64,000 bases of DNA from Streptomyces sp. NBC_01275 (GTDB lineage: Bacteria > Actinomycetota > Actinomycetes > Streptomycetales > Streptomycetaceae), in contig NZ_JAPEOZ010000001.1 of assembly GCF_026340655.1 (NCBI RefSeq), positions 4,030,001 to 4,094,000 of the forward strand. The letters run 5' to 3'. The notes under the pieces are model-generated. The model saw only the letters and a list, made by a program, of their open reading frames with translations, ran no database searches and was not told where the DNA came from. The position numbers were made by a program, and so were the translations under genes. Below, piece by piece: positions 38,847 through 64,000 of the stretch (position 1 is the stretch's first letter; every line of letters begins with the position of its first letter).

Positions 38847-40013
38847 TCACGCGCTGAGCGATCCGTCGTCCTCGCCCAGGTCGTGCATCTCCTCGACCTG
38901 CTGCACCAGATCTTCGGCAAGCCATCGCCACATCCCGGCGTATCCCTGAGCGAGCCGCGCCACGGACTCCTTGCAGTGCGCGGGCACCGCCTCGGCGACC
39001 TTCCGCCGGTCCCGGGTGATCAGTGCGCAGACGTCGAGCAGGCGCAGGAGGGAGCGCCCCGAGGCGTTGTGACGCAGCGAAGGATCGCGGGTCAGCATGC
39101 CGGTGATCTTCATGACGTCCTCCAGCGCCATGACCGGCGTCTTCTCATCGGCCAGAGCACGCCGCCGTGCGGCCGGCAGCCGGGTGATCGTGGCCCCGGT
39201 CGCGGGCGCCCGGACCGGAACCGCTTCCACCGCCGATGTGCGGCTCACGGCCTCCGTGGCCTGAGCCGCGCGACCCCGTACGCCGCTCGGCACCGGGCTC
39301 TCGCCGCGCTGGATCCGGTTGCGCACGTCCGCGACGGTCGCCGGGGCCAGACCCACCTCCGCCGCGATCTGCCGCAGGGAGAAGCCGGGATTGCTCCGGA
39401 TCAGCTCACCGGCCTGTTCCCGTCTGCGGGCGGAGTCGATGGGCCGGACCCGGCCGTCCCGTCCGACTCTGCGGTCGGACTGCGGCAGCGCCATCTCCTT
39501 GCGCAGCCGTGCGACCTTCTTCGGGGAGAGGCCGGCGACCGCCGCGACGGCCCGGTCGGACCACTGCGGATGCGAGGTGAAGATCCGCATCGCGGCGGCC
39601 GCCCGGTCGGTCGTGGACAGTGTCCGCCCGTGGGCGATGTTGGCTGCCACCGCAAGGAGCCGGGCGTCCTCCTGATCGCCGTCGAAGAACCGCGCCGCGA
39701 TGCGGTCCTCCCCCAGGAGCTCGACCACGCGCAACCGGTGGGCGCCGTCGATGACGGTCATGCTCGCGCGGTGCACAAGAATCGGCGGGAGCTCGTCTGC
39801 GGTCTCGGCCAGGACCCGAATGTGGTCGGCGTCCTCACCGTGTACCCGTGGGGAGAAACCGGTCCGGAGGCGTTCCACCGGGACCCGCTCGACAGGCAGT
39901 TCTTTGAGGATGGATTGCAGCTTTATCAAGTAATCTGAATCTGCTCGGTCCACGGCCATTCCCATCGCACGAAGCCAATCCGATTCACAAGGGGTGACTT
40001 CACTGCCATCCAT
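38847..40013 (-). CDS. StrR-type pathway-specific activator (ParB-like N-domain)
   Basis: The 388-residue protein is built like StrR, NovG, Bbr and Tei15*. It has a ParB/sulfiredoxin-like domain (PPILVHRASMTVIDGAHRLRVVELLGEDRIAARFFDGDQEDA), a DNA-binding helix-turn-helix (HPQWSDRAVAAVAGLSPKKVARLRKE), a second one (GFSLRQIAAEVGLAPATVADVRNRI) and a C-terminal domain (DPSLRHNASGRSLLRLLDV). Family members activate antibiotic clusters through GTTCGA-type palindromes; a matching site is at 45696-45724. ATG 40013 is chosen; it lies inside the end of a small upstream ORF, so translation may be coupled. Confidence 0.87.
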   Translation of the reverse strand: MDGSEVTPCESDWLRAMGMAVDRADSDYLIKLQSILKELPVERVPVERLRTGFSPRVHGEDADHIRVLAETADELPPILVHRASMTVIDGAHRLRVVELLGEDRIAARFFDGDQEDARLLAVAANIAHGRTLSTTDRAAAAMRIFTSHPQWSDRAVAAVAGLSPKKVARLRKEMALPQSDRRVGRDGRVRPIDSARRREQAGELIRSNPGFSLRQIAAEVGLAPATVADVRNRIQRGESPVPSGVRGRAAQATEAVSRTSAVEAVPVRAPATGATITRLPAARRRALADEKTPVMALEDVMKITGMLTRDPSLRHNASGRSLLRLLDVCALITRDRRKVAEAVPAHCKESVARLAQGYAGMWRWLAEDLVQQVEEMHDLGEDDGSLSA

Positions 40014-40179
40014 GGTCGTTCTCAGTGATCGAGAATGCATCCGAGTCGGCGGCCAGCAGCTGGACTTCCTGCGCCCGGGAGTCGGCGTGCTCGACCTGCA
40101 CGGCAAATCCGGTCGCCGTCACAAGAACACCGGCCAGGATCACGCCGCGAAAGACATTGCGCGGAATCAGGTAGGACAT
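40000..40179 (-). CDS. Small membrane-type or secreted peptide upstream of the StrR-type gene
   Basis: This 59-residue frame reads MSYLIPRNVFRGVILAGVLV followed by TATGFAVQVEHADSRAQEV and ends in SITENDHGWQ. It has one hydrophobic helix after two Arg, like a signal or anchor, and an acidic tail. ATG 40179 is preceded by AAAGGAGAAGGGG, a strong ribosome site. The last 14 bases overlap the start of the StrR-type gene, so the two are likely one transcript with coupled translation. Homology unknown. It could be an anchor peptide, a leader ORF that tunes the regulator, or a signal. Confidence 0.6.
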   Translation of the reverse strand: MSYLIPRNVFRGVILAGVLVTATGFAVQVEHADSRAQEVQLLAADSDAFSITENDHGWQ

Positions 40180-40281
40180 CGGATACCCCTTCTCCTTTGC
40201 TGGATCTCGCTGACAGGAATGAGATTGCCGTCAGCGCAGGGAGAAGAAAAGTAGGCAGGCGGGAGGTAAACCGGCCATGAC

Positions 40282-40611
40282 CTACTCTGTCCACCCCAGC
40301 CCTGGGGACGGACCTGCCTCGAGGTCAGGCCTGAACAAGGGGATCTCGGCACGGACCAGCTCCCAGGCCTGCAGCTCCGCCACGGCGGAGCTGGCATGCC
40401 CCCACAGAGAGAGGGCCGCCGTCTCGGCCTCCTTCAATGATTCGGCATGCACATAAAAGCCGATGATGGGGTGGGGCGCCATATCCGGGTGCACGCTCAC
40501 ATGTTCGAAGCCGTGCCGGCCGGCGCAGGACCGGGCAATGGACTTCGCGACCGAGGAAGGTACTACCGCATCGGGCCAACGCGGCCGGAGAGATACGTGG
40601 ACGAGAAACAT
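40282..40611 (-). CDS. Hypothetical protein, about 109 residues
   Basis: From ATG 40611, with AAGGACA 4 bases upstream, the protein reads MFLVHVSLRPRWPDAVVPSSV, then GFEHVSVHPDMAPHPIIGFYVHAESLKEAETAALSLWGHAS. The alternation of short beta strands and helices looks like a compact ferredoxin-like fold. No catalytic motif is seen. It lies between the StrR-type operon and the divergent LuxR gene. Function unknown. The upstream ATG at 40626 is an alternative start. Confidence 0.6.
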   Translation of the reverse strand: MFLVHVSLRPRWPDAVVPSSVAKSIARSCAGRHGFEHVSVHPDMAPHPIIGFYVHAESLKEAETAALSLWGHASSAVAELQAWELVRAEIPLFRPDLEAGPSPGLGWTE

Positions 40612-40830
40612 AGATGTCCTTGCCATCCGAATGCCTGGTGTTCGGACGATGTCATTCCGCAGCCGCCGAGCTGGTCCCGACCACCGTCTGCGTGTCCTGA
40701 GAGTACACAGGGTGGGCCAACTGGGCACATATGAAGCAACTCTGTTCAACTCCGGCAACCCCTTGCTTTGTTGCAGCTTGATCACATAAACTCAAGGGAA
40801 TGTCTTGAATACATGCACAGCGGGGGCGGC

Positions 40831-41859
40831 ATGGTTGACACAGAGGCAATACATCCGGGTTCCCTGGGCTCACTCGGCTTGGAGCCGGTCATCGAGTCCG
40901 TCTACATCGCGTTGCTGGACAGGACGCAGGGCGTAGCCGACATCTGCCGCCGCCTGGACCTGCCGGAACACGTCGTCCGCAACGCCCTCGACCGCCTCAG
41001 CGAGTTGGCCCTCGTGCGCGCGTCGGTCGGATCCCCGCATCGTCTGCACGCGGTCAGCCCGCACGTGGGCATGGAGTTCCTGATCGCCCAACAGCGCTCC
41101 GAACTCGCCAGACACCAGCAGAGGCTGGAAGCGGCGCAGGCCGCAGCGGCCAAGTTCATCCTGGACTACGACGGACGTCAGCCTCCCGGCGCCGACGGGG
41201 CCGAGGGCAAATACCTCGTAGGGCTGGACGCGATCCGGGACCATCTGAGAGTCCTCAACGACCAAGTGGCCGAAGAACTCCTCACCTTCGCGCCCGGCGG
41301 CCCGCAGAAGCGGGAGAACATGCAGGCGTCCCGGCCGCTCAACCAGCAACTGCTCAGACGTGGCGTACGGATGCGCACGGTCTACCTGAACAGCATTCGC
41401 ACCGACCGGCCGACCATGGAACACGCACGCTGGCTGACCGCACAGGGATGCGAGGTCCGCACCGTCCCGTCACTGCCGAACCGAATGATCATCTACGACC
41501 GTAAACTCGCGATGATCGCCTCCAACGCCGCGGACACCGCCGCCGGAGCCGTCCAGGTGAGCTCACCGGGTACCGTCACGGCGCTGCACAGTCTGTTCGA
41601 GAGCGTGTGGCAGTCCGCGGAACAGCTCGAGGCGCCGGTGCAGCCGGCCCCGGGAGAGCTGACCGCTCAACAGGCCGAGGCGCTCCGGCTTCTGGCGCTC
41701 GGTCACACCGACGAGGCCATCGCCACGCGCCTGGCAGTGTCACCGCGCACCGCCCGCCGCATCACGTCCAGCCTCATGACCCACCTCGGCGCGCGCAGCC
41801 GTTTCCAGGCAGGCGTGCTCGCCATACAGCAGGGATTCCTCCCTTCTCTCTCCGAGTGA
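40831..41859 (+). CDS. LuxR-type HTH regulator with TrmB-like N-terminal half
   Basis: The 342-residue protein has an N-terminal winged-helix-like segment (ESVYIALLDRTQGVADICRRLDLPEHVVRNALDRLSELALVRA) and a coiled region (AQQRSELARHQQRLEAAQAAAAKF). A middle domain follows, with YLVGLDAIRDHLRVLNDQVAEELLTFAPGG, resembling phospholipase-D-like TrmB sensors. It ends in a LuxR HTH (LTAQQAEALRLLALGHTDEAIATRLAVSPRTARRITSSLMTHLGARSRFQAGVLA). ATG 40831 is used; ATG 40813 is possible. It probably acts as a second cluster regulator. Confidence 0.82.
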   Translation: MVDTEAIHPGSLGSLGLEPVIESVYIALLDRTQGVADICRRLDLPEHVVRNALDRLSELALVRASVGSPHRLHAVSPHVGMEFLIAQQRSELARHQQRLEAAQAAAAKFILDYDGRQPPGADGAEGKYLVGLDAIRDHLRVLNDQVAEELLTFAPGGPQKRENMQASRPLNQQLLRRGVRMRTVYLNSIRTDRPTMEHARWLTAQGCEVRTVPSLPNRMIIYDRKLAMIASNAADTAAGAVQVSSPGTVTALHSLFESVWQSAEQLEAPVQPAPGELTAQQAEALRLLALGHTDEAIATRLAVSPRTARRITSSLMTHLGARSRFQAGVLAIQQGFLPSLSE

Positions 41860-42288
41860 CGCCCCGAGGGAAGCCCGAGTGACTCCCCGGGAGACTCCCC
41901 GAGGGACGCCCGAGAAGACGGCGTAGCGCCTCTTCCCGCCGGGTCCGGCCGGAGCACGCTGCCGCCTGACCGCCAGGTCCGGGGACAGCACGCTGCCGCC
42001 TGCTGTCCAAGTGGTTCCGGAATTCGCTTGAACAGCGGGGTCGATGTGCAACCATCCCTGCCGGCAGGCACGTTGACACTCCCGGTCGCTCATGGTCTCG
42101 TGGCGCACATCACCGAGATCTCCGTAGAAGACCTTTCCGAATTAGGCGATGGAGCAGATTCGGCGCCGCCTCAGGGTTGGTTGTTCGCCGCGACGCCTGC
42201 TCTTTCTCCGCCGAAGCAGGAGTGGGGACTTCCCTCTTCTCCGACGCTTGCGGACCGCCGCCTTGAGTATCGTGTGGAGTCGAACCAG
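41860..42288. other. Upstream region of the A-T-C NRPS, coding status uncertain
   Basis: 41860-42027 has CCCGAG(T/G)GAC-type repeats and no gene. From TTG 42028 a frame runs in phase into the NRPS and contains [16 protein letters not shown], acidic and leader-like, then a Pro/Ser-rich linker. It may be an N-terminal extension of the NRPS or leader DNA. Many codons here end in T, unlike the surrounding genes. Confidence 0.4.
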
Positions 42289-45200
42289 ATGCGTGATTCG
42301 CTTTCCCTTCACGGGCGGTTTCATGAGCAGGTCGGGCGTACTCCGGATGCGGTGGCGGTGCGTTCCGCGGGGCGTGAGCTGACCTATCGGGCGCTGGACC
42401 GGCGGTCCGATGCGCTGGCGGGTGTCCTCATCGGCCTGGGGGTGGGCCCGGAGGCGCCGGTCGCGGTGCTGACCGACCGCAGTGTGGACGTCACGACGGC
42501 GTTCCTGGGCGTCCTCAAGGCCGGCGGCTGCTACGTGCCCCTGCACACCGGGTTCCCGGCCGAGCGGATGGAACGGATCATCCGTCAGACGGGCGCACAG
42601 GTCCTGCTGACCGATGCGGTGTCGGCCGCCCAGGGGCTTCCCGAGGGCGATTTCACCGTGGTGCGGGTGGACGAGCCGGTACGCGCCGGCGCAGCGCCCG
42701 GGCCGGCCGGAGTGGTGTGCGCGCCGGACCGGTTGGCGTATGTGATGTTCACCTCCGGCTCCACCGGGGAGCCCAAGGGCGTCGCCGTCAGCCACCGCAA
42801 CGTGCTGGATCTGGTCGACGACTCACTGTTCGACACCGGGCATCACGACCGGGTCCTGATGATCGCCCCGTATGCGTTCGACGCTTCGCTGCACGGCCTG
42901 TGGATGCCTCTGCTGCGCGGCGCCACCTCGGTCATCGCCGCCGCTGACGACGTGTCCGCGCCCCGGCTGCGAGAGCTGTTCGACACGGAGGAGATCACCA
43001 GTGTGGAGATGACCGCCGGTCTGCTGCGGACCATCGCCGAGGGCGCTCCGGAGACCTTCCACGGGCTGCGCGAAGTGTCCACCGGCGGCGACGTCATCTC
43101 CCCGGTCGCGGTGCGGCGGATCCTCCAGGCCTGCCCCGGCACGGTGGTGCGCGCCACGTACGGGCCCACCGAGACCACGCTGTTCGCCACCCAGCACGCC
43201 TACACCGACGCCGCCCAGGTCGCCGACCGGGTCCCCATGGGCCGTCCGCTGGACGACATGCGCGCCTACGTCCTGGACGGGCAGCTGGCCCCGGTCCCCG
43301 TCGGCGGCCCGGGCGAGCTGTACATCGCCGGGGCCGGCCTGAGCCGCGGCTATCTGCACCGCCCGGGTCTCACCGCCGAACGCTTCGTCGCCGACCCCCA
43401 CGGGCCGGCCGGCAGCCGCATGTACCGCACCGGCGACATCGCGTGCCGGAACCCGGACGGCATGCTCGAGTTCCTCGGCCGCGCCGACGACCAGGTCAAG
43501 ATCCGCGGCTTCCGCGTCGAGCCGGGCGAGATCGAAGCCGTCCTGTCGACGTTCCCGGGGCTCGCCCAGGTCGTGGTCACGGCCCGGGAGGCAGACGGCG
43601 ACAAGCGCCTGGTGGCCTACGTCGTCGGCGACAGGGCCGTCGACGTCGGCGCGCTGCGCGAGCACGCCGCGGCCGCCCTGCCCGAGTACATGCTCCCTGC
43701 CGCTTTCGTGACCCTGGACGCCTTCCCCCTCACCCCGAACGGGAAGGTCGACTACCGGGCCCTGCCCGCACCGGAGTTCACCGCGACCGCCGCCTACCGC
43801 GCCCCGCGCACCCCGGACGAGGAGACGCTCTGTGCTCTCTTCGCGCAGGTCCTCGGCGTCGAGCGGGTCGGCATGGACGACGACTTCTTCGACCTCGGCG
43901 GCCACTCCCTCCTCGCCACCCAGCTGATCGGCGAGCTGCGGACCGCCTTCGACGCGGACGTGTCCATCCGGCTGCTGTTCGGCGCCCCGACGGTCGCCGC
44001 GCTGCTTCCGCTGCTCCGGGCGCAGGATCCGAAGGCCCGCCGCCCGGTGCTCGCCCGGAGCGGGCGCCCCGCCCGCGTCCCGCTGTCCGCCGCCCAGCAC
44101 CGGATGTGGTTCCTGGAACAGTGGGACGGCCCTTCCCCCCTGTACAACCTGCCCGTCGTCCTGCGGCTGAGCGGCGACCTGGACCGGGACGCGCTCCAGG
44201 AGGCGGTCCGGGACGTGATCGTCCGGCACGAGAGCCTGCGCACCGTGGTGGGGGAGGCGGCCGGCGAGCCGTACCAGGTGGTGCTCGACCCGGCCGACCT
44301 GCACCTCGTCCTGCCCGTCAAAGCCCTGGACGAGGCGGAGCTCGACGCCGCGGTACGGGAGGCCGGCGGCCGGCCGTTCCGTCTGAAGGCCGACCCGCCC
44401 CTGCGTGCAGAGTTGTTCGTCCTGAACGAGCGCGAGCACGAGCACGTGCTGGTGCTGACGCTGCACCACATCGCCTCGGACGGATGGTCCAAGGCGCCGC
44501 TCAGCCGTGATCTGGCCACCGCCTACACGGCCCGGCGGGCCGGCCGGGCCCCGGCGTGGTCCGAGCTTCCCGTGCAGTACGCGGACTACACGCTGTGGCA
44601 GCACACGCTCCTCGGCGACCCCGGCTCCCCCGACAGCCTCGCCGGGCGTCAGCTCGCGTACTGGAAGGACGCCCTGGACGGTGCACCGGACGAGCTGGCC
44701 CTGCCCTTCGACCGGCCGCGCCCCGCGGACAGCGCCCACCGGGGCGAGGCCCTCCCGCTGCGGCTCGACGCCGAACTGCTCGCCTCCGTAGTCGAGTTGG
44801 CGCGACAGCAGGACGCCACGCCCTTCATGGTGCTGCAGGCCGGACTCGCGATGCTGCTGCACCAGCTCGGCGCGGGAGCGGACATCCCCCTGGGCAGCGT
44901 GGTGGCCGGGCGCGGCGACACGGCGCTCGACGACCTGGTCGGCTTCTTCGTGAACACCGTCGTCCTGCGCACCGACCTGTCAGGAGACCCCTCCTTCACC
45001 GAGCTGCTCGCCCGGGTGCGGGAGACCGCCCTGGGCGCGTACTCCCACCAGGACGTGCCCTTCGAGCAGGTCGTAGGGGCCGTCAACCCGGCCCGTTCGC
45101 TGTCCCGGCACCCGCTCTTCCAGGTCATGCTCGTCCTGCAGAACGTCACCGGCTACGAGTTCGCGATGCCCGGCCTCGACGTCTCGGTCGTCGAGGAGGC

Positions 45201-45423
45201 CACGTCGACCTCGAAATTCGACCTGCTCTTCAGCATCACCGAGCAGTACGACGAACAGCGTCGCCCCGTCGGCGTCACCGGCTACGTCGAGTACGACACC
45301 GCCCTGTTCGACGCGTCGACGGTCGAGGGGATCCGTGACCGCTTCGCCACGCTGCTCACGAAGGTCGTGGCCGACCCGGGGCAGCGGGTCTCCGCGCCCT
45401 TTCTCCTCACCCCGGTGAGCTGA
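42289..45423 (+). CDS. Nonribosomal peptide synthetase, one module A-T-C
   Basis: The 1044-residue protein has an adenylation domain (residues 1 to about 510; [18 protein letters not shown] near 155, [27 protein letters not shown]). A carrier domain has its pantetheine Ser in [13 protein letters not shown] (near 539). A condensation domain has the active-site motif [11 protein letters not shown] (near 727). The A-domain pocket, read by eye against GrsA, is roughly D-A-H-E-S-G-T-L-F-K; four pocket positions besides Lys match what I remember for Dpg-type codes. With C at the end, this protein should donate its residue to the one on the separate A-T protein. No epimerase or thioesterase domain is present. 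ATG 42289 sits right before the A domain, with GTGGAG upstream. Confidence 0.9.
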
Positions 45424-45791
45424 CCGCAGCCGAGCGGATCGCCGCCCGGATCGCCGCCCGGGCCGCATGCCGCTGCCGCGCTGCCGCGCGCCGCCGAACT
45501 CCTCGTCTCCTTCTCGGCGATCCTCGAGGCCGGCGCCCGCCCCTGCGGCCTGGCGCGGCGGAGCCCGGCGGACCCGGGCGACTCCGGCCACCTCGCCCCG
45601 CGCCGGCGAAGGGGACGTCATACCGGCTGAATCGGTGCCGGGAAGAAAGCGCACGGCAATGAAGACAACGCACGGCAATGCGACTCAAGCACGCGGTTCG
45701 GCGCATTGCACGGCATTGGCGAACCACGAGTGATCGTGTGATGCTGAGGCCTCCAAAACAGCCTCAATTCATTGGCGCCTGGGGGAATTTC
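45424..45791. other. Intergenic region with the StrR-type operator
   Basis: This 368-bp gap between the NRPS and the aminotransferase has GATCGCCGCCCG repeats at its start, GCACGGCAAT repeats near 45650-45720 and the operator at 45696-45724. No convincing gene is seen. It is the likely promoter region of the rightward precursor operon. Confidence 0.6.
45696..45724 (+). promoter_or_regulatory. StrR-type operator upstream of the aminotransferase/dpg operon
   Basis: GTTCG, 19 bases, CGAAC. The full halves are GTTCGGCGC-N11-TTGGCGAAC, matching the spacing of the StrR consensus GTTCGACTG-N11-CAGTCGAAC. It lies 68 bp upstream of the aminotransferase ATG, in activator position. The cluster's own StrR-type protein is the obvious candidate to bind it. 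Confidence 0.65.
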
Positions 45792-47126
45792 ATGCCAGGA
45801 ATCACCGTTGCCGCCGACACCCGTTCGCGGGATTGGCTGGAAATGGCAGAGCTGCACGGCAGTGTTTCCGAGCCGGTGCTGGACACCATGAACTTCCTCA
45901 ACGAGGTGACCCATCGCTATCCGGACGCGATTTCGTTCGCACCGGGGCGGCCGTACGACGGATTCTTCGAGACCGAGCAGGTCTTCGCCTGTATCCGCCG
46001 CTATCTGGACCACTTGGCGGAGCAGGGCGGCTCGACGGCCGACATCCGCACCGCGCTGTACCAGTACGGGCCGACCGCGGGGCTGATCCGCGGCATCATC
46101 GCCGACTCGCTGCGGGCCGACGAGGACACCGACGTTCCGGCCGAGTCCATCGTGGTGACCGTCGGCGCCCAGGAGGCCATGCTGCTGGTGCTGCGCGCGC
46201 TCATCGCCGGCCCCGACGACGTGCTGCTGGTCTCCAGCCCCTGCTATGTCGGGATCACCGGCGCCGCCCGGCTGCTCGACGTGACCGTACGCCCGGTGGA
46301 AGAGCGCGAGGACGGGTTCAGCGCCGCCGATCTGGAGGCCGCGGTGCTGGCGGAGCGGGCGAACGGCCGCCGCCCCCGGGCGTTCTACGTGGTGCCCGAC
46401 CACTCCAACCCGTCCGGCAACACCATGGGGCCCGAGGCCCGCGAGGAGCTGCTGAAGCTCGCCGAGCGCCACGACTTCCTGGTGCTGGAGGACAGCCCGT
46501 ACCGGCAGGTGAGCCCCGGCACGCCGCTGCCGACCCTGAAGTCCCGGGACCGCGCGCGCCGGGTGGTGCATCTGGGCTCGTACTCCAAGACGGTCTTTCC
46601 CGGCGCCCGGGTCGGCTTCGTCGTCGCCGACCAGCGCGTGCGTGACGCCGGGGGCGGCGAGCATCTGCTGGCCGACGAGCTCGCCAAGATCAAGAGCATG
46701 GTGACGGTCAACACCTCGTCGCTGAGTCAGGCGGCCGTGGCCGGCGCGCTGCTCGGCGCCCAGGGCCGGCTGTCGCGGCTCAACGCGGAGGCGGCCGCCT
46801 ACTACGGCGACGCGATGCGGGAGATGCTGCGGCAGCTCGACGCCCGGCTGCCCGCCGACCGCCGCGAGGCCCTCGGCGTGCGCTGGAACGAGCCGACCGG
46901 CGGCTTCTTCCTCACCATGCGGGTCCCGTTCCGGGTGGACAACGCCCTACTGGCCCTGTCCGCACAGGACTTCGGCGTGATCTGGACGCCGATGACGCAC
47001 TTCTATCCCGGCGCCGGAGGCCTCCACGGCATCCGGCTGTCGACCAGCTATCTGACGCCTGCCGAGATCGAGGAGGGCGCCGCGAGGCTTGCGCGCTTCG
47101 TCGAGGCGCAGAGCGCGGCGCTCTGA
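45792..47126 (+). CDS. PLP-dependent aminotransferase, HpgT/PgaT-like (arylglycine forming)
   Basis: The 444-residue fold-type I enzyme carries WLEMAELHGSVSEPVLDTMNFLNEV near its start, VTVGAQEAMLLVLRAL, YVVPDHSNPSGNTM and the PLP lysine in LGSYSKTVFPGARVGF (near residue 265). In glycopeptide-type pathways the HpgT-like enzyme aminates 4-hydroxy- or 3,5-dihydroxyphenylglyoxylate. With dpgA-C immediately downstream and no hydroxymandelate genes visible, the Dpg role is most likely. ATG 45792 has GGGGGAA 4 bases upstream. A StrR-type operator precedes it. Confidence 0.88.
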   Translation: MPGITVAADTRSRDWLEMAELHGSVSEPVLDTMNFLNEVTHRYPDAISFAPGRPYDGFFETEQVFACIRRYLDHLAEQGGSTADIRTALYQYGPTAGLIRGIIADSLRADEDTDVPAESIVVTVGAQEAMLLVLRALIAGPDDVLLVSSPCYVGITGAARLLDVTVRPVEEREDGFSAADLEAAVLAERANGRRPRAFYVVPDHSNPSGNTMGPEAREELLKLAERHDFLVLEDSPYRQVSPGTPLPTLKSRDRARRVVHLGSYSKTVFPGARVGFVVADQRVRDAGGGEHLLADELAKIKSMVTVNTSSLSQAAVAGALLGAQGRLSRLNAEAAAYYGDAMREMLRQLDARLPADRREALGVRWNEPTGGFFLTMRVPFRVDNALLALSAQDFGVIWTPMTHFYPGAGGLHGIRLSTSYLTPAEIEEGAARLARFVEAQSAAL

Positions 47127-47218: not shown

Positions 47219-50270
<3,052 letters not shown>

Positions 50271-50428: not shown

Positions 50429-51055
50429 ATGGTTCGCTCCGGTCCGACGGTTCGCTCCGGTCCGACGGTTCGCTCCGGTCCGACGGTTCGCTCCGGTCCG
50501 ACGGTTCGCTCCGGTCCGTGGGAGCGCGGTGCCACCGTCTGGCTGACCGGCCTGCCGAGCGCGGGCAAGACGACCATCGCGACCGCGGCCGCCGGGCGGC
50601 TGCGCGCGGCCGGGCGCCGGGTGGAGGTGCTGGACGGGGACGAGATGCGTGAGTTCCTCTCCGCCGGGCTCGGCTTCTCCCGTGCGGACCGCCACGCCAA
50701 CGTGACCCGCATCGGCTTCGTCGCCGAGCTGCTGGCCTCGCACGGCGCGCTCGCCCTCGCTCCGGTCGTCGCACCGTACGCGGAGAGCCGGGAGGCGGTG
50801 CGCCGGCGTCACGAGGCGTCCGGCACGCCGTATCTGGAGGTGCACGTGGCCACGCCGGTGGACGTGTGCTCCGGTCGCGATGTGAAGGGCCTGTACGCCA
50901 GGCAGGCCGCCGGTGAGCTGACCGGGCTGACCGGGGTGGACGACCCCTACGAGCCGCCGACCGATCCGGAGCTGCGGATCGCGGCTCACCTGCAGAGCGT
51001 GGACGAGTCGGCGCAGGCGCTGCTGGATCTGCTGAAGAGAAAGGGCATCGCATGA
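50429..51055 (+). CDS. cysC: Adenylyl-sulfate kinase CysC (with repeat N-terminus)
   Basis: The enzyme phosphorylates APS to PAPS, the sulfonyl donor. The P-loop is WLTGLPSAGKTTIA near residue 40; VLDGDEMREFLSAGLGFSRADRHANVTRIG and PYAESREAVRRRHEA follow, then EVHVATPVDVCSGRDVKGLYARQAAGE. The 208-residue protein begins with about five VRSGPT units encoded by 18-bp tandem repeats. No good ribosome site lies before ATG 50429, so the true start is uncertain. Its stop overlaps the cysD ATG (ATGA). It probably supplies PAPS for the cluster's sulfotransferase rather than for assimilation, since no cysH is adjacent. Confidence 0.9.
   Translation: MVRSGPTVRSGPTVRSGPTVRSGPTVRSGPWERGATVWLTGLPSAGKTTIATAAAGRLRAAGRRVEVLDGDEMREFLSAGLGFSRADRHANVTRIGFVAELLASHGALALAPVVAPYAESREAVRRRHEASGTPYLEVHVATPVDVCSGRDVKGLYARQAAGELTGLTGVDDPYEPPTDPELRIAAHLQSVDESAQALLDLLKRKGIA
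50432..50521 (+). repeat. Five 18-bp tandem repeats at the cysC 5' end
   Basis: GTTCGCTCCGGTCCGACG is repeated four times exactly, then once with changed last bases. In the cysC frame it encodes VRSGPT units. Confidence 0.95.
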
Positions 51056-53616: not shown

Positions 53617-54222
53617 TCAGACGATGTCGAGCAGGTCCTCCAGCGGCGCGGGCACACGGTCGTGCGGGAGCGCCTCGATGAGCACCCGGCCGTAGTGGAT
53701 CTTGCGTCCCCCCTTGGTGCCGAGGAACCGCCGCAGCTGCTGCTGCGGGCTGCGTCCCCGCTGCCCGGGCTGGGACAGGAAGGTCTGCAGGGGACGGAGT
53801 TCGCCCTCCTGCCGGATGAGCTCCGTCACCCGTTCCACGCCCAGAGCGCGGATGAGCTCGTCCTCCAGGTCCGCATCGCACACGAAGAAGTCCGGCGGCA
53901 GCCCGGCCCGTGCCCAGCCGCGGGCGTAGTAGCCGCGTTCCCTCTCGTCGCACAGACCCGTCAGATGCAGGTCCAGACCGTCCGGCCCGAGGCAGTCGAT
54001 GAAGCGGGCCACGTTCATCGCGCCGCCCATCGCCAGGACGCAGACCCCCTCCTCGACCAGGTCCCGGCCGTGGCCCTCCGCCAGCGCCTCGACCGCGGCG
54101 ACGTCGCTCGGTCCTTCGAGCAGGACGGCTCCCCGGACGGGCAGCAGCGCGGCCAGCTCGTACGCCGGGTCGCCGGAGCCGCCCGCCGCCCAGGCGATGA
54201 CCGCGTTGCGGAAGGACCTCAT
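53617..54222 (-). CDS. TOPRIM (OLD-nuclease-like) domain protein
   Basis: The 201-residue protein has the TOPRIM pattern of OLD-family nucleases: VLLEGPSDVAAVEALAEGHGRDLVEEGVCVLAMGGAMNVARFIDCLG near residue 33, a first Asp in LTGLCDERERGYYA, and a second acidic cluster in FVCDADLEDELIRALGVE. No ATPase domain is attached. ATG 54222 begins one base after the stop of the A-T NRPS, so it is the last gene of that operon. A role in a peptide pathway is not obvious: DNA protection, repair of self-damage, or an unrelated rider are all possible. Confidence 0.8.
   Translation of the reverse strand: MRSFRNAVIAWAAGGSGDPAYELAALLPVRGAVLLEGPSDVAAVEALAEGHGRDLVEEGVCVLAMGGAMNVARFIDCLGPDGLDLHLTGLCDERERGYYARGWARAGLPPDFFVCDADLEDELIRALGVERVTELIRQEGELRPLQTFLSQPGQRGRSPQQQLRRFLGTKGGRKIHYGRVLIEALPHDRVPAPLEDLLDIV

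Positions 54223-56237: not shown

Positions 56238-56241
<4 letters not shown>
56080..56241 (-). CDS. Small coupled ORF between N-hydroxylase and A-T NRPS
   Basis: The 53-codon frame starts at a GTG overlapping the hydroxylase stop (GTGA) and ends in a TGA overlapping the NRPS start (ATGA). It reads VTTASRSCPALKLAGSM, then TPARRADADRMETEVFDLAG and SPKREFETAFDKAGIS. The double overlap favours real translation. It is not an MbtH-like protein. Internal ATGs could give shorter products of 37 or 26 residues. It may be a small docking or accessory protein, or only a coupling ORF. Confidence 0.5.
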
Positions 56242-57551
<1,310 letters not shown>

Positions 57552-57569: not shown

Positions 57570-58487
57570 TCATCCCGCGTCAGCATGGTTCCTCCGTTCC
57601 GCGCGCCGGCCGGCGATCAGTGCCGGGTCCGCCCGCATCTCCTCGTACCAGTGCCGCCACTTCGCCACGTCGTCGGCGAGGCCCGCGGCGGCGATCGCCG
57701 TCTCCTCCCGCTCCCAGCTGACCTCGCCCCGGGGCTGGATGCCGCTGCTGCCCAGGACCTTGCGGTAGAACGGGTCGTCCTCCTTGCGGACGTCGCTCAT
57801 CAGCGCACCCACCTCGGGCGAGACCAGTTGCAGGCCCGGACGAGGGGACCAGTTCTCCAGTCCCCCGACCGACGGCAGTCCGACCGCCGCCGTCAGGGCG
57901 GCCGTGACACCGGCCGGGTCGGCCCGCAGGTCGTCGGAGTCGACCAGCACGTACGGGATGTCCCGCGCCCGGCACAGCTCCACCTGCTCGCGCAGCGACT
58001 GCCATCCGCTCTCGAAGGGCGGGAAGGTCTGCGCGCCGTTGAGCTCCCGCACGATGCGCAGCCGGGAGGTGGTCGACAGCCGGGGGTCGCAGATCACGAA
58101 GATCGGCGGAGCAGTGGCGAGCCCGACGAGCTGCGCGAACTGGGTCTCGCTGAGCTGGAAGCTCATCTCCTTCATCAGCAGGCCGCCGCCCCGCTCCACG
58201 TCGGCCAGCGCGACCCGCTTGCCCGACGCGACCTCCATGGGGTTGGACAGAATGCCTTCGACGACTTCCGGGCCCTGGTCACCCCAGTAGCACGCCTCGA
58301 AAGGCTCGTGGCAGTGGTGCGTCACCGACGGGTGCTGCCACAACAGTCGCGCCACGGCGGTCGACCCGGTACGTGGTGGCGATATCAGCGCCAACCGGTT
58401 CTCGTACACCTGGGTCAACACAGTTTCCAATTCCACTGTCTCCTCCTGCTGACTCAGCTCGGCAACGGCCGAAGCCATGGATTTCAT
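57570..58487 (-). CDS. PAPS-dependent sulfotransferase
   Basis: The 305-residue protein has a 5'-phosphosulfate loop at ALISPPRTGSTAVARLLWQHP (near residue 35) and a 3'-phosphate segment in FVICDPRLSTTSRLRIVRELN (near residue 130). HHCHEPFEACYWGD may hold the catalytic base. With cysC, cysD and cysN in the same cluster, it should transfer sulfonate from PAPS to the peptide or a building block. ATG 58487 is used; an ATG three codons later and longer upstream frames are alternatives. It is 18 bp upstream of the N-hydroxylase gene and in the same operon. Confidence 0.82.
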   Translation of the reverse strand: MKSMASAVAELSQQEETVELETVLTQVYENRLALISPPRTGSTAVARLLWQHPSVTHHCHEPFEACYWGDQGPEVVEGILSNPMEVASGKRVALADVERGGGLLMKEMSFQLSETQFAQLVGLATAPPIFVICDPRLSTTSRLRIVRELNGAQTFPPFESGWQSLREQVELCRARDIPYVLVDSDDLRADPAGVTAALTAAVGLPSVGGLENWSPRPGLQLVSPEVGALMSDVRKEDDPFYRKVLGSSGIQPRGEVSWEREETAIAAAGLADDVAKWRHWYEEMRADPALIAGRRAERRNHADAG

Positions 58488-58506: not shown

Positions 58507-59805
58507 TCACCGCGCCTGCAGCGCCTGGTCGAGATCCTCGATGACATCGTCCAGATGCTCGATTCCGATGCTCAGCCTGATCATGTCCGCCGGCACCGGA
58601 ACCCGGTCGGGATCGGCGTCCGCGGCCTGCTTGTGCGTGGTGGCCCCGGGAATCGTGGCCGTGCTCTTGACCTGGCCGAGGTTGTTCGCCCGCCAGACGA
58701 GCCTGAGGCGGTCCATCACCTCGTGCGCGGCCCGGACACCGCCGGCCGGGCGGAAGCAGAGAAGGAAACCGAACCGGTTCTCCGCCTCTCCCCCGTCCCG
58801 TTCGCTGTCGACCAGCCGCATGTCCCGCGCGGCGATGCGGTGGGACCGGTGGCTCTCCAGTCCCGGATAGAAGACCTCGACGACGCCGGCGTGCTCCGCG
58901 AGGTACCGGGCCACCCCGTGCGCGGTGCGGGACATGGCGTCCACCCGGCCGCGCAGTTCCCGGATGTCCGCAAGGATCGTCCACGCGTTGAACGGGCTGA
59001 TGACCGCGCCCATGTCCCGCAGCGGACCACGGCGCAGCCAGCCGGCGTAGTCGGCCGACAGCTGCGCAGGCTGCCCGCGCAGCCCCAGGTCGTGTCGGGC
59101 GATCACCGCTCCGCCCATGCTCCGGCCGCTGGCGCCGGCCGCCTTGGTGAGCGAGTGCACCACCACGTCCGCGCCGAGGGCCAGCGGGCGCAGCAGCGCG
59201 GGCGTCGCGAGGGTCGCGTCGACGATGAGCGGGATGCGCGCCTGCCGGGCCAGCGCCGCCAGCGCCGGGATGTCCACGAGCTGCACCGTCGGGTTCGACG
59301 GGACCTCCGCGTAGAGGAACCGGGTCTCGCCGTCGACCAGGCGGGCCCAGTCCTCGACCGACAGCGGGTCGCCGACCCAGCGCACGTCGACGTCCCGTTC
59401 CTCCCCGTACCGCTTGTCGAAGACCATCGTGGTGGAGCCGTAACACTGCGGCGACGCCACGATGTTGGGCTTGGGCCCGGCGGCGGCGGACAGCAGCGGC
59501 GTCGTGGCCAGGGTGATCGCGCCCATCCCGGTCGCGGTGAGGGCGGCGCTCACCTCCGCGTCGACCTGGTATCCCTCCAGCGCGGCCACGGTCTGCTCCA
59601 GGAGGCGGACCGTCGGGTTGCCCCGACGCGAGTACACCCAGCCGTCGCCGTCCTCCGCGGTGGCGGCGAGCATGGCGTCCATCGACGGGAAGCTCTGCGC
59701 TGTCGCCAGATGGGCGGGCTCGCTCAGCGAACCGAGGTGACGGGCCGACTCCGCATGGTCGTAGGACCCGCTGACGGCCAGGGTCGTGAATCGGGCGTCC
59801 GTCAC
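58507..59805 (-). CDS. Cys/Met-metabolism PLP enzyme (cystathionine gamma-synthase family)
   Basis: The 432-residue protein has the family features VYSRRGNPTVRLLEQTVAALEGY near residue 57, TRFLYAEVPSNPTVQLVDIPALAALARQARIPLIVDATLATPALLRPLALGADVVVHSLTK with the PLP lysine near residue 220, and a C-terminal MIRLSIGIEHLDDVIEDLDQAL. Members do gamma-replacement or gamma-elimination on homoserine esters or split Met/Cys derivatives. In some natural-product pathways they build unusual amino acids by gamma-substitution. It may make the second residue of the peptide. It starts the leftward run toward the NRPS, 190 bp after the DUF885 gene. Confidence 0.87.
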   Translation of the reverse strand: MTDARFTTLAVSGSYDHAESARHLGSLSEPAHLATAQSFPSMDAMLAATAEDGDGWVYSRRGNPTVRLLEQTVAALEGYQVDAEVSAALTATGMGAITLATTPLLSAAAGPKPNIVASPQCYGSTTMVFDKRYGEERDVDVRWVGDPLSVEDWARLVDGETRFLYAEVPSNPTVQLVDIPALAALARQARIPLIVDATLATPALLRPLALGADVVVHSLTKAAGASGRSMGGAVIARHDLGLRGQPAQLSADYAGWLRRGPLRDMGAVISPFNAWTILADIRELRGRVDAMSRTAHGVARYLAEHAGVVEVFYPGLESHRSHRIAARDMRLVDSERDGGEAENRFGFLLCFRPAGGVRAAHEVMDRLRLVWRANNLGQVKSTATIPGATTHKQAADADPDRVPVPADMIRLSIGIEHLDDVIEDLDQALQAR

Positions 59806-59995: not shown

Positions 59996-61726
59996 CTAGA
60001 GCCGGGCCAGTTCGTCCTGGAGGTCGTCGAGACCGAGTGGGCCGAGCGACAACGCGGCCGTGTGCCAGGACTTCAGGTCCAGCCGCTCGCCGCGGGCGGC
60101 GTGCGCCGCCCCGGCCGCGGCCCGGCCGTCCAGCCAGGCCCGCTCCCCCAGCTTGTAGGAGATCGCCTGACCGGGCAGGCCGAGATACCGTCCTATCTCA
60201 CTGTCCACGAACTCGGCCGACTGCCCGCTGTGGAAGGCGAGGAACTCCTTCGCGAGCTCGGGAGTCCAGGTCCGCCCCGCGCCGACCGGGGCGTCGCGCG
60301 GGATGTCGAGGGCCAGGTGCACTCCGGTGTCGATCAGGACCCGCACGGCGCGCAGCATCTGCCAGTCGAGGAAGCCGAGGCGCTCGCCGGGGGTGCGCAG
60401 GTAGCCGAGCTCGTCCATCAGCCGCTCCGCGTACATCGCCCAGCCCTCGGTGCAGGCGTCGATGCCGCCGAGAGTGGCCTGGTACGTCGACAGCCGGTCG
60501 CTGAGGTGCCTCCACTGGGCGAGTTGCAGATGGTGGCCCGGCACGCCCTCGTGATACCAGACGCTGCGCAGGCTCCACAGGGGGAACCGGGTGCGTCCCT
60601 GGGTCGGCAGCCAGGTCCGGCCGGGGCGCGAGAAGTCCACGCTCGGCGGGGTGTAGTACGCCGCCGAGCCACTGCCCGCCGGCGCGATCGCGGATTCCAC
60701 CACCCGCACCGGCGGCGCGAGTTCGAAGTACGTGCCGTCGAGGTCGTCGAGCGCTTCGTCCATCCAGCCCTGCAGCCGCAGCCGGACCTCTTCCACTCCG
60801 TCCACCGCCTCGCCGTGCCGGTCGAGGTGGTGCATCGCCTGGCGTGCCGTGGCTCCGGGCAGCACGGACTCCGCCTCGGCGCGCATCTCGGCCCGGATCC
60901 TGCGGTACTCCTCCCAGGCCCACGCATGGGTCTCCTGCAGGTCGAGTTCGGCGCCCGTCCAGAACCGGGCCCAGGTGCGGTACCGGTCGGCGCCCACGCC
61001 GTCGGGCCGGCCCTCGACCCTGGGGAGATAGTCGGCGCGCAACCAGTCCCGCAGCTCGGCCAGCGCCGCGACGGCCAGGCCCGCCGACGCGTCCAGTTCG
61101 GACCGCAGCGACGGCGGCACGTCGGCGTCCGCGCAGAAGCCGGCGTGCCAGCCCCGGCCGTCGCCGTCGCGGATCCACGCGTCGAGCTGGTCGGCGACGA
61201 CGCGGACCTGTCTCGGCGCCGCGGCGAAGCGGTCCTTCTCCAGCGCTCCGGTCAGGGAGTCCCGGAAGCCGTCGACCGTCCGCGACACACGGCTCATCCG
61301 CCGCGCGGCCGCTGCCCAGTCGTCCGCGTCGCCCGTCGGCATCAACTGGAAGATGTCCTGGACGCGTTGCTGCAGGCCGTAGACGTTGACGACCTCACGC
61401 AGGTACTCGTCGTCGGCGCTGACGGCCAGGTCGGCCTGAAGGCGCTCGCGCAGCAGCCGCCCGCACCGTCGCTCCTCGGCGGTCAGGGGGCCCGCCGCGG
61501 CCTGCTCGGCCCTGTCCAGGTCGAGGAGGGTGGCGCGGGACAGGTCGTCCAGCCGGGCGCGGCCTTCCGGCGACAGGTCGGGCATCTCGTCCTGCCCCAC
61601 CGGCACACCCAGGTAGGTGGCGATGCCCGGGTCCACCCGGGCGAGCCCTGTGACATAGGCGTCAGCCACATCCCGCACCGCGCGGGAGTCGGCAGATATG
61701 TCGTCGCCCACCTGTCTCCACCTCAT
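59996..61726 (-). CDS. DUF885 family metallopeptidase-like protein
   Basis: The 576-residue protein is largely helical. It has the zinc-type motif in VWYHEGVPGHHLQLAQW (HEGxPGHH, near residue 393) and GWAMYAERLMDELGYL downstream, as in DUF885 gluzincin-like proteins. Members are thought to be carboxypeptidase- or oligopeptidase-like, but the biochemistry is poorly known. Within this cluster it could trim a protected precursor, recycle aborted peptides or give self-protection. ATG 61726 is preceded by CAGT repeats. The 59806-59995 gap downstream has no clear gene. Confidence 0.85.
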   Translation of the reverse strand: MRWRQVGDDISADSRAVRDVADAYVTGLARVDPGIATYLGVPVGQDEMPDLSPEGRARLDDLSRATLLDLDRAEQAAAGPLTAEERRCGRLLRERLQADLAVSADDEYLREVVNVYGLQQRVQDIFQLMPTGDADDWAAAARRMSRVSRTVDGFRDSLTGALEKDRFAAAPRQVRVVADQLDAWIRDGDGRGWHAGFCADADVPPSLRSELDASAGLAVAALAELRDWLRADYLPRVEGRPDGVGADRYRTWARFWTGAELDLQETHAWAWEEYRRIRAEMRAEAESVLPGATARQAMHHLDRHGEAVDGVEEVRLRLQGWMDEALDDLDGTYFELAPPVRVVESAIAPAGSGSAAYYTPPSVDFSRPGRTWLPTQGRTRFPLWSLRSVWYHEGVPGHHLQLAQWRHLSDRLSTYQATLGGIDACTEGWAMYAERLMDELGYLRTPGERLGFLDWQMLRAVRVLIDTGVHLALDIPRDAPVGAGRTWTPELAKEFLAFHSGQSAEFVDSEIGRYLGLPGQAISYKLGERAWLDGRAAAGAAHAARGERLDLKSWHTAALSLGPLGLDDLQDELARL

Positions 61727-62072: not shown

Positions 62073-63095
62073 TCAGCGGGCCAGGAGCACTCCGGCGTCC
62101 TCGTCGCGGGCGAGGGAGTGGACGCGGGTCGCGAGGGCCACGTCGTGGACGCCCATGCCGAACGGGTTGATCACCGTCCGGTCGGCGAGGGTGATCGGGC
62201 GCGCGTAGGCCCCGGACAGGAGCGTGGCGAGGTCCGCGTCCACCTGGCGGGCTCCCGGGGCCTCGACGCCCGGGCCGGTGGCGCGGCCGGACCGGGCCAG
62301 GCGGCCCAGGAGCCGGGTGTCGTCCTCGCTGACCAGGCGCCAGTCGTCGACGAACAGGTGCTCGACGCCCAGGAGCACGTCCTCGGCGGCGTCGTCCAGG
62401 GACACGTTGAGGAAGACGGAACCCTCCGGCAGCCAGGCCAGGGGCACGTACGAGGTCGTGGTCGTCGTGGTGGCCAAGGAGACCGGGGCCGAGCGGACCG
62501 CTGATTCGGGGTCGGCGGCGATCTCGACGTCGATCTCCGGCAGCGATGCGCGCAGCTCGTCGGCGAAGGCCTGGCGCCGGGACGGCGACAGGTCGTAGGC
62601 GATCACCGACTTCACCGCGCCCTGGGCCGCCAGCAACCCCAGGTGCGTACGCGCCTGGACACCGCACCCCAGCAGGGCCACCCGGTCCACCGTGGGCAGA
62701 GGGCGGACCGCGCGCAACGCCGCCACGGAGACGGCCGCGGTGCGCAGGGCGCTGATGTACGCGCCCTCCATGATGCAGACCGGCTCGGCCGTCTCCCTGT
62801 CGTACAGGAGGATCAGGCCGGCGGCACGGGGCAGGCCGCGATCCGGGTTGCCCAGACTGGCGTTGATGATCTTGCATCCGTACGCGCCCTCGTGCCAGGC
62901 GGGCAGGACGAGGCTGCGGGCCGCGGCTCCGTCCGGGGCGGTCCAGCGCAACGCCGCCTCGGTCGCCACTCCGGAGAGGTTCGCACGAACGGCGAGGAAG
63001 GCCTCGGTGACCGCCTCGAGCGGGTCGATCCGCGCGCACAACGACGCGACGGTCGCACCGTCGAGGTACCGCAGCGGCCTGGAGGAGGCTTGCAT
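62073..63095 (-). CDS. Ornithine cyclodeaminase / SbnB-like dehydrogenase family protein
   Basis: The 340-residue protein has RTAAVSVAALRAVRPLPTVDRVALLGCGVQARTHLGLLAAQG (NAD motif near residue 140), preceded by AYGCKIINASLGNPDRGLPRAAGLILLYDRETAEPVCIMEGAYISALRT. A conserved NPFGMGVHDVALATRV lies near the end. Family members include ornithine cyclodeaminase (Orn to Pro), alanine dehydrogenase and SbnB (release of 2,3-diaminopropionate). The fold cannot tell which. An SbnA-type partner is not in the window. ATG 63095 has AGGAAGC upstream. Divergent from the thioesterase. Confidence 0.87.
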   Translation of the reverse strand: MQASSRPLRYLDGATVASLCARIDPLEAVTEAFLAVRANLSGVATEAALRWTAPDGAAARSLVLPAWHEGAYGCKIINASLGNPDRGLPRAAGLILLYDRETAEPVCIMEGAYISALRTAAVSVAALRAVRPLPTVDRVALLGCGVQARTHLGLLAAQGAVKSVIAYDLSPSRRQAFADELRASLPEIDVEIAADPESAVRSAPVSLATTTTTTSYVPLAWLPEGSVFLNVSLDDAAEDVLLGVEHLFVDDWRLVSEDDTRLLGRLARSGRATGPGVEAPGARQVDADLATLLSGAYARPITLADRTVINPFGMGVHDVALATRVHSLARDEDAGVLLAR

Positions 63096-63149
63096 TGCTG
63101 CTTCCTTTCTCGTTACGGAACAAGGGAGATAGGGACATCCGGACAGTCC

Positions 63150-63239
63150 GAACTCGGAACTCGGAACTCCGAACTCCGAACTCCGAACTCCGAAATCGGA
63201 ACAAGGGACGTCGGAACTCGGAACTCGGAACAAGGGACG
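63150..63239. repeat. 7-bp tandem repeats (GAACTCG/GAACTCC) in a divergent promoter region
   Basis: Two blocks of 7-bp units are each followed by GAACAAGGGACGT. They lie between the cyclodeaminase-family gene and the thioesterase, where both promoters must be. Confidence 0.9.
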
Positions 63240-63297
63240 TCTGACAAAGGAATGGCGACCTTGAAGCGCTCAGACGGCCTCCTCTACGGTCGCCCGC

Positions 63298-64000
63298 ATG
63301 AACTCTCCGGAATCTCGTCCCAAGAAGCCGCCGCGCTGGCTCCTGCGCCGCCCGGATCCCGACGCACCGGCCCGCCTCTTCCTTTTCCCCTACTCGGGGT
63401 GCGGCGCCTCGATGTACCAGGCGTGGCCGCGCCGCATCGGTGCGGTCGACGTCTGCCTGATCCAGCCGCCCGCCCGGCAGAACCGGATCGCCGAACCGCA
63501 CTACGGGACCTACGAGAACATGGCGCGGGACCTCGTCGAGTACCTGCGGCCGCACCTGGACCGGCCCTTCGCGTTCTTCGGGCACTGCGGCGGAGCGCTC
63601 CCCGGCGTCGAGGTGACCCGGCAACTCGCCGCGGCCGGGCTCCCGTTACCCGAGAGGGTCTTCGTCTCGGCGCAGGTGGCGCCGCACGACGGGCCGTACG
63701 GGCGGCTGCTCGAACTGGACCGGAACGGGCTGCGCGCCGAACTCGGACACATCATCGCCAACCTCGGCGGCGAGCCGAGCGGACCGCTCATCGAGATGGG
63801 CCTCCAGGTCCTCGTCAACGACCTCGAGGCGAACAAGCGGTACTCCCCCGGCCGTGTCGCCCTTCCCTCGGGCATCACCGCGATCGGCTGGTCCGAGGAC
63901 GTCGAGATCCCCACGAAGCTCATGGGCGGCTGGCAGGACACCTCGGCCGACAGCCGGCTCGTCGAGCTGAAGGGCGACCACTTCGCGTTCCTCTCCGCGC
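63298..64000 (+). CDS. Type II thioesterase with Cys nucleophile (3' end beyond window)
   Basis: The frame is open to the right edge, 234 codons. It matches GrsT/RifR-type thioesterases: RLFLFPYSGCGASMYQAW near residue 29, FAFFGHCGGALPGVEVTRQLA near residue 94, GWSEDVEIPTKLMGGWQD and KGDHFAFLS with the catalytic His. The usual GHSxG is GHCGG, so the nucleophile is Cys near residue 97. Such proteins normally clear blocked carrier domains. As no thioesterase domain is on either NRPS, this one could also release the product. No clear ribosome site precedes ATG 63298. Confidence 0.88.
   Translation, partial: MNSPESRPKKPPRWLLRRPDPDAPARLFLFPYSGCGASMYQAWPRRIGAVDVCLIQPPARQNRIAEPHYGTYENMARDLVEYLRPHLDRPFAFFGHCGGALPGVEVTRQLAAAGLPLPERVFVSAQVAPHDGPYGRLLELDRNGLRAELGHIIANLGGEPSGPLIEMGLQVLVNDLEANKRYSPGRVALPSGITAIGWSEDVEIPTKLMGGWQDTSADSRLVELKGDHFAFLSA

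Follow-up and report, generated by a model that had tools for sequence, protein, structure and literature searches.

What does a locus make that gathers genes for an aromatic amino acid, for activated sulfate, for N-hydroxylation and for sulfonation around nonribosomal peptide synthetases (NRPSs)? Such a locus begins at position 38847 of a 64,000-nucleotide stretch of Streptomyces sp. NBC_01275 (the window: bases 4030001-4094000 of a 10.4-Mb contig, NZ_JAPEOZ010000001.1). A first-pass annotation had listed these genes, all of which are present, and had read from them a 'very small' peptide made by a 'two-adenylation' NRPS. When the window numbering was carried past 64000 through the adjoining stretches, the genes proved to be the left part of an NRPS cluster of about 63 kb (38847 to about 101836; g34-g72), which the window edge cuts. 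To the right lie three further NRPSs with an acyl-starter domain (a fatty acyl-AMP ligase, FAAL), two modules of the 2,4-diaminobutyrate (Dab) type and extra thiolation (T) and condensation (C) domains. The full line reads FAAL-T-C-A-T-C / A-T-C-T / C-A-T-C-T-C / A-T-C / A-T, where A is an adenylation domain, and has four amino-acid A domains beyond the two inside the window; the genome as a whole has 81 AMP-binding matches. We rejected a two-residue peptide as a window-edge effect: with an acyl starter, four more A domains and T domains predicted to be loaded in trans, the small size is not supported, and the extension past the window edge corrects the estimate of cluster size.

Our answer, which we regard as having about an even chance of being right, is that a cassette of g45-g48 and g51 makes and delivers one unusual residue of an N-acylated, Dab-rich peptide, to which 3,5-dihydroxyphenylglycine (Dpg) is added in Streptomyces. 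On the minus strand the cassette comprises an A-T didomain (g45, 54224..56083, code DPFWLGGCFK), the proposed loader of the residue for transfer; an FAD N-hydroxylase of the Lys/Orn family (g46, 56238..57551; PF13434, 282 bits), with Dab as its proposed substrate; a 3'-phosphoadenosine 5'-phosphosulfate (PAPS) sulfotransferase (g47, 57570..58436), whose GTG start was set by homology, the longest open reading frame starting at 58547; and a pyridoxal phosphate (PLP) enzyme of the Cys/Met-metabolism family (g48, 58507..59805; PF01053, 284 bits). On the plus strand follows a free RifR-type thioesterase with a Cys nucleophile (GHCGG; g51, 63298..64000, ending at 64083 past the window), the proposed aminoacyl shuttle. 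The closest solved relatives of g46 are MbtG, a lysine 6-monooxygenase, an ornithine 5-monooxygenase and KtzI. g48 matches 4kam and 87 other solved sequences at E <= 1e-10, and its SLTK motif aligns to the Lys motif of its relatives. g47 has a sulfotransferase fold, with Teg12 and Teg14 among the fold matches; against PDB sequences it gave no match as a single sequence and a weak match to CurM as a profile (E 0.11), and against plasmids none. SPPR..ST is found in 17 of the 18 rows of the sulfotransferase alignment, the remaining row starting downstream of the motif, and P117, S123 and R124 of a second stretch are invariant in all 18; we take both stretches to be PAPS-binding.

We treat the locus as one cluster because three other streptomycetes have almost all of its genes, at identities of 64-94%. 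All of g34-g72 is present in S. albiflavescens, and S. griseus BIG105 and S. silvae have all of it except g66, the FMN-binding part of g67, and g72; S. silvae additionally lacks g43, where a contig ends, its cluster being split over two contigs. Among the four streptomycete versions, g66 and the FMN-binding domain fused to g67 occur only in the window's genome and S. albiflavescens. The latter carries one additional A-T-C protein between g68 and g69, and the T domain at the end of g54 is encoded on its own in all three relatives and in Umezawaea. The block of regulator, Dpg and PAPS genes (g34-g43) adjoins the g44 end in the window and the g71/g72 end in S. albiflavescens and S. griseus BIG105, a difference that a single inversion of the remaining ~48 kb would explain; a search at the borders of the inverted block gave no inverted repeats (best match E 0.13), and misassembly in the window's genome is the alternative. 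Umezawaea tangerina has g45-g62 at 73-85% identity, and g44, g49 and the dpg block were not found in the 80 kb compared there. At its cluster end stand a different A-T-C-A-T protein and more distant cysCDN genes (42-48%), and a DpgC gene lies on another contig.

The cassette also recurs, with no dpg genes at the locus, in Umezawaea, Actinomadura, Amycolatopsis and Symbioplanes. A sulfotransferase search of 297 family genomes gave 14 matches at E <= 0.001, of which the window's own and two others fell below 1e-160 and ten were weak (E 1e-5 to 5e-4). Scanning 84,980 species genomes yielded 18 loci; with one from the family search (G184) added, we compared 19 loci, covered by 20 stretches of 7.6 to 115 kb, with the window genes. 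The sulfotransferase is 50-89% identical to g47 in 13 of the 19. A relative of the N-hydroxylase lies in the stretch of 12 of these 13 and, in Symbioplanes, 41 kb away on the same contig. A g48 relative is at least 70% identical in nine, 32% in one and not in the stretch in three; g45 and g51 orthologs are found in the same eight. The Dab-forming aminotransferase EctB is present at 59% or more in six and at 49% in one; two further loci have relatives at 34-38%, perhaps other aminotransferases, and four have none in the stretch.

Sulfotransferase and N-hydroxylase genes adjoin in 9 of the 13 loci, and in Amycolatopsis MtRt-6 they form one open frame of 735 amino acids. This co-occurrence, the adjacency and the single frame indicate that enzymes of the g46 and g47 types probably act on the same nitrogen. 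In the six loci whose sulfotransferase is only 29-36% identical, the N-hydroxylase is in none of the stretches and SbnA is in five. Since the N-hydroxylase accompanies the close sulfotransferase and SbnA the distant one, two subfamilies seem to exist, one tied to N-hydroxylation and the other to 2,3-diaminopropionate (Dap). The distant loci L027, L042, L043, L044 and L045 have SbnA, and some also an SbnB-like gene or cysC/D/N; they are candidate pathways of Dap N-sulfonation. At the close end, a Burkholderiaceae metagenome-assembled genome (L039:5862-14824) has nine same-strand genes that include EctB, a major facilitator superfamily (MFS) protein, an ATP-grasp protein, L-PSP/RidA, the sulfotransferase, a 2-oxoglutarate oxygenase, the N-hydroxylase, the PLP enzyme (32%) and CysC (39%). 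This run may be a minimal pathway from Dab; a TGA lies inside its sulfotransferase frame.

The delivery half of the proposal draws on the NRPS architecture. g45 and its eight orthologs consist of A and T domains only, and their pocket letters are identical in all nine sequences. Two Actinomadura loci and those of Amycolatopsis and Symbioplanes encode a short NRPS, A-T-E-C-A-T (E, an epimerization domain, assigned by motif), in which the SGSTG core is lost from the second A domain in all four; three of these carry a GWSFG thioesterase, and the contig ends within the Amycolatopsis one. g53 of the Streptomyces and Umezawaea line is C-A-T-C-T-C, with one T domain that has no A domain. Because the A domain is dead or absent, one T domain per line has to receive its residue from elsewhere. 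A RifR-family enzyme, g51 departs from the canonical Ser triad: it keeps His and Asp, and Cys stands in place of Ser in 9 of 9 orthologs, the window's included. The second thioesterase, g64, has GHSMG, with Ser kept in 5 of 5. By analogy with LgnA, a type II thioesterase that moves Thr from the A-T protein LgnB to LgnD-T1 (PMC8748450, partial text), we infer that g51 is an aminoacyl shuttle from the T domain of g45 to that of g53.

The pathway can then be proposed as follows. EctB (g62) would provide L-Dab, whose side-chain amine g46 would hydroxylate; N4-hydroxy-Dab occurs in the actinopyridazinone pathway (PMC11705231, partial text). g47 would place sulfate from PAPS, supplied by g41-g43, onto the hydroxylamine oxygen, and g48 would act on the resulting N-sulfooxy amino acid, most simply with sulfate as the leaving group, closing a ring: an aziridine through the beta carbon, or another nitrogen-containing ring. 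g45 would activate the residue and keep it on its own T domain, and the Cys of g51 would carry it to the T domain of g53. The acylase g52 would strip the acyl chain set by the FAAL outside the cell, a prodrug logic, and Dpg (g36-g40) would be an extra residue of the Streptomyces version. What the analysis shows directly is the gene content and its conservation, the domain layout, the dead or missing A domains, the Cys nucleophile and the sulfotransferase fold; the Dab substrate, the sequence of reactions, shuttling, ring closure and deacylation are inferred. The chemical core of this scheme, a portable cassette in which PAPS-dependent O-sulfonation lets sulfate leave nitrogen while a Cys/Met-type PLP enzyme closes an aziridine or other nitrogen ring, is a tentative proposal that we think somewhat doubtful.

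Several observations sit uneasily with this proposal. Apart from D235 the g45 pocket has no acidic residue, unlike Dab codes, so a basic residue seems a poor fit; g45 may instead load the end product of the cassette, or a substrate of other origin than Dab. EctB is not in the compared stretch in Symbioplanes, Actinomadura KC216, Rhizomonospora and S. aurantiacus. The loci of S. aurantiacus, Lentzea and Nocardia have the N-hydroxylase and the sulfotransferase with no g48 relative in the ~21 kb compared, and with 3 of 13 loci lacking one, not every use of the sulfonated product involves g48. In Rhizomonospora the N-hydroxylase, sulfotransferase and PLP enzyme occur with a T-C protein 71% identical to the end of g53, yet g45 and g51 orthologs are not in the stretch, a combination that trans-loading leaves unexplained. 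The Amycolatopsis single frame could reflect a lost stop codon or an assembly fault, the two genes stand apart in Actinomadura terrae and Symbioplanes, and in two more loci one gene lies between them. Nor is Cys needed for shuttling, since LgnA works with Ser (PMC8748450, partial text). Absences from the compared stretches are in any case weak evidence, given how much the stretches differ in length. In the S. aurantiacus and Nocardia loci, where N-hydroxylase and sulfotransferase are paired with an ATP-grasp ligase, we also noticed MurA-like enolpyruvyl transferases (L036:13183-14454 and L040:16516-17841; 148 and 170 bits, cut-off 297). Fosfomycin-type electrophiles hit a MurA-type target, and these genes are possibly a resistant copy of an electrophile target, or a biosynthetic enzyme.

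Dpg and PAPS supply occupy the plus strand to the left of the cassette, the dpg genes preceding the PAPS genes. DpgA (g38, 47219..48316; NF042429, 658 bits, cut-off 425), DpgB (g39, 48310..48990; NF042431, 319 bits, cut-off 140) and DpgC (g40, 48987..50270; NF042432, 748 bits, cut-off 530) are all above cut-off, and the HpgT-like aminotransferase (g37, 45678..47126; Aminotran_1_2, 94 bits) was assigned by comparison with other dpg loci, being 73-75% identical to the enzyme adjoining dpgABC in genomes G398 and G056. CysC, the adenosine phosphosulfate kinase (g41, 50525..51055; PF01583, 179 bits), has an uncertain start, its coordinates marking the domain boundary; CysD (g42, 51052..51987; TIGR02039, 448 bits, cut-off 397) and CysN (g43, 51990..53432; TIGR02034, 535 bits, cut-off 336) follow. 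The genome has two further CysD genes above cut-off elsewhere, which bears out the suggestion that the PAPS module, with its sulfotransferase, is extra to other sulfate activation. The Dpg supply likewise belongs to the cluster, as had been proposed: its genes are in all four streptomycete versions compared, on a separate contig in S. silvae, and cysC and cysD, with cysN where the contig permits, are attached to them in all four.

The candidate user of Dpg is g36 (42028..45423, plus strand), an A-T-C protein and possible Dpg module. Its A domain falls among the phenylglycine-type A domains encoded at other dpg loci (best identity 52%, in a tree without support values), which makes incorporation of Dpg plausible; its code, DAHESGTLFK, shares 7 of 10 letters with DAYHSGTAFK of G398, in a comparison confined to A domains of other dpg loci. 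In the 120 kb around the Umezawaea DpgC locus (G300:C5, six stretches) no A-domain frame was found. Since the last domain of g53 is a C domain and g36 has the layout A-T-C, Dpg may come after the cassette residue in the peptide. Counting S. silvae as having them, dpgA and dpgC are not in the compared stretch in 10 of the 13 loci with a sulfotransferase at least 50% identical, and in five of those ten DpgC is below cut-off genome-wide. Dpg may still be joined to an N-hydroxylated amino acid, as the first-pass annotation suggested, but it is unnecessary for the chemistry of the N-hydroxylase and sulfotransferase, and looks like a Streptomyces add-on to the cassette cluster.

These distributions bear on four other explanations. 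That g47 sulfates a Dpg phenol, as Teg12 does on glycopeptide aglycones, with the N-hydroxylase serving a hydroxamate elsewhere, would fit the Teg12 and Teg14 fold matches and the run of dpg and PAPS genes on one strand; it is highly improbable given that most loci with the close sulfotransferase lack dpgA/dpgC, half of those in genomes without DpgC above cut-off, and that the sulfotransferase is a neighbour of the N-hydroxylase or joined to it in one frame. Two independent clusters side by side, a Dpg/A-T-C unit with regulators and a larger cassette cluster, might account for the missing dpg block and the different A-T-C-A-T protein in Umezawaea and for the block order that differs between the window and two relatives; we consider this quite unlikely, because both blocks occur in all four streptomycete versions with sulfate-activation genes attached to dpg, and more distant cysCDN genes also stand at the Umezawaea cluster end. 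An acyl-peptide siderophore with hydroxamate ligands from the two N-hydroxylases would follow pyoverdine-like logic (PvdL/PvdQ): the FAAL start, Dab codes, EctB, penicillin-amidase-type acylase, protein resembling formylglycine-generating enzyme (FGE) and N-hydroxylases are all reminiscent of it, whereas the modules, the aromatic residue and the PAPS genes are not. Pfam matches of the cluster genes scanned, all but g60, include no family of acetyltransferases or formyltransferases; the N-hydroxylase is accompanied by the sulfotransferase, and a ligand would be lost on O-sulfonation; and the second N-hydroxylase is missing in two of three relatives. A siderophore is accordingly very unlikely.

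A monobactam-like product, in which the sulfonated nitrogen is retained and becomes part of a C-terminal beta- or gamma-lactam, N-sulfooxy or N-sulfo, formed by the Cys thioesterase, is unlikely. The sulfazecin system combines an NRPS, a PAPS sulfotransferase acting in trans on a diamino-acid nitrogen, Dap supply genes and ring closure by a Cys thioesterase, and SulTE groups with type II thioesterases (PMC11298585, partial text). In this cluster a sulfotransferase and a Cys thioesterase are accompanied by an SbnB-like gene and by SbnA, whose score is marginal, and SbnA stands beside most of the more distant sulfotransferases. The monobactam thioesterase, however, is a domain in cis with a Gln-Cys-Asn motif (PMC11298585, partial text), whereas g51 and its orthologs are free-standing and RifR-like with His-Cys-Gly or His-Cys-Ser; on the absence of that motif from g51 (His-Cys-Gly) we rejected a SulM-type monobactam cluster. 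The N-hydroxylase, PLP enzyme, A-T didomain and Dab supply are further differences from sulfazecin, and the PLP enzyme has no place in a monobactam-like scheme. SbnA is not in the compared stretch of 9 of the 13 close-sulfotransferase loci, so Dap is not tied to the cassette, and a GWSFG thioesterase domain is already built into three of the four short NRPSs, the other being cut by the contig end.

Other known systems can be set beside single parts of the cassette reading. Glycopeptide antibiotics are built on a heptapeptide line of seven modules in known order; such a line was not found in the layout of this cluster, a comparison that included no search for an X domain. The CmaE and SyrC shuttles of coronamic acid and syringomycin reportedly have a Cys nucleophile. 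By its description, CmaE carries an aminoacyl group from an A-T protein to another T domain (cited through PMC8748450, partial text), as we propose for g51. The legonindolizidine system shares the separate A-T didomain, the free thioesterase of the RifR/LgnA family and a T domain without a working A domain beside a C domain; LgnA differs in having Ser (GHSxG) and in moving Thr, and here an N-hydroxylase, sulfotransferase and PLP enzyme accompany the set (PMC8748450, partial text, for the legonindolizidine system). In the actinopyridazinone pathway (Apy11, Apy9), Dab N4-hydroxylation is likewise the entry to activated-nitrogen chemistry, but there an ATP-dependent enzyme links the hydroxylamine to alanine through an ester (PMC11705231, partial text), where we propose sulfonation from PAPS.

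The remaining genes complete the picture. Gene starts come from a codon-usage script, also used for the relatives, and are approximate; A-domain codes were taken by anchor motifs and alignment to g36, without a trained predictor. At the left end, g34 (38847..39929, minus strand) is a ParB-domain/HTH regulator (HTH_23 23 bits, ParB 22.8 bits, both under cut-off), presumably StrR-like, with orthologs of 75-83% identity at the end of the Dpg block in three relatives; g35 (40768..41859, plus strand) is a LuxR-type regulator (GerE 28.8 bits, cut-off 23.5) with a TrmB-like N-terminus (24.1 bits, slightly under its cut-off of 25.6), 78-83% conserved. Three minus-strand genes flank or interrupt the cassette: g44 (53617..54222), a 201-residue protein with a weak OLD-like TOPRIM match (PF20469, 30.9 bits, cut-off 23.2), 76-86% conserved in three relatives and lying inside a biosynthetic cluster; g49 (59996..61726), a DUF885 peptidase-like protein (PF05960, 443 bits); and g50 (62073..63233), an SbnB-like dehydrogenase of the OCD family (108 bits), which is below the TIGR03944 (SbnB) equivalog cut-off (181 vs 327 bits) and a possible partner of SbnA (g57; TIGR03945, 350.1 bits vs cut-off 349.95).

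Right of the window, g52 (64136-66382; L002:8136-10382) is a penicillin-amidase-type acylase with an N-terminal hydrophobic stretch, kept at 81-89% identity in four relatives and a probable extracytoplasmic deacylase. The NRPSs follow: g53 (66442-72822), with a docking region before C-A-T-C-T-C; g54 (72819-76193), A-T-C-T; and a third (76190-82585), FAAL-T-C-A-T-C, its FAAL assigned from a DIP2-like match and a motif. The codes DIWELTADDK and DIWEVTADDK in the line are ones we take to specify Dab. Beyond the third NRPS come a P450, SbnA, an FGE/EgtB-like protein, a second DUF885 protein and an MbtH-like protein (87310-87687, by motif only), and then, mostly on the opposite strand, a cupin-like protein, EctB (g62), an MFS exporter, the type II thioesterase g64, a KAS III-like protein, the second N-hydroxylase (g66, L003:18016-19293) and a free A domain, presumably with a Pro-like code, fused to an FMN-binding domain (g67, L006:1377-3491). 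Two free T domains flank g69 (L006:4003-4704), a 233-residue protein with no Pfam or NCBIfam match and a stretch AYCAASA invariant in 4 of 4 orthologs, window included; it may be another shuttle of the Cys type. A second P450 and a dimethylargininase-like hydrolase (g72), ending at 101836, close the cluster.

No described pathway with this gene set was found in the literature searched, in line with the first-pass annotation, MIBiG and antiSMASH lying outside that search. We see the cluster as a variant of the known NRPS type in which building blocks are loaded in trans. What may be new in kind is sulfonation of a hydroxylamine, which was not found described for bacterial biosynthesis in the portions of the literature available to the search; a review of N-N bond formation has no occurrence of sulfotransferase, PAPS or sulfate. 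In animal toxicology, sulfonated hydroxylamines are strong nitrogen electrophiles. If the proposal is true, such chemistry would have a recognisable genetic signature, an N-hydroxylase gene adjoining a sulfotransferase gene, often with PAPS genes; genome miners could search for it, and chemists might gain an enzymatic route to strained nitrogen rings. Loci of at least three types would use the building block: NRPSs for acyl-peptides, short NRPSs whose A domain is dead, and ATP-grasp clusters with no NRPS in the stretch. Bacteria would then possess an enzymatic electrophilic-nitrogen strategy that is supplied to several peptide and ATP-grasp pathways.

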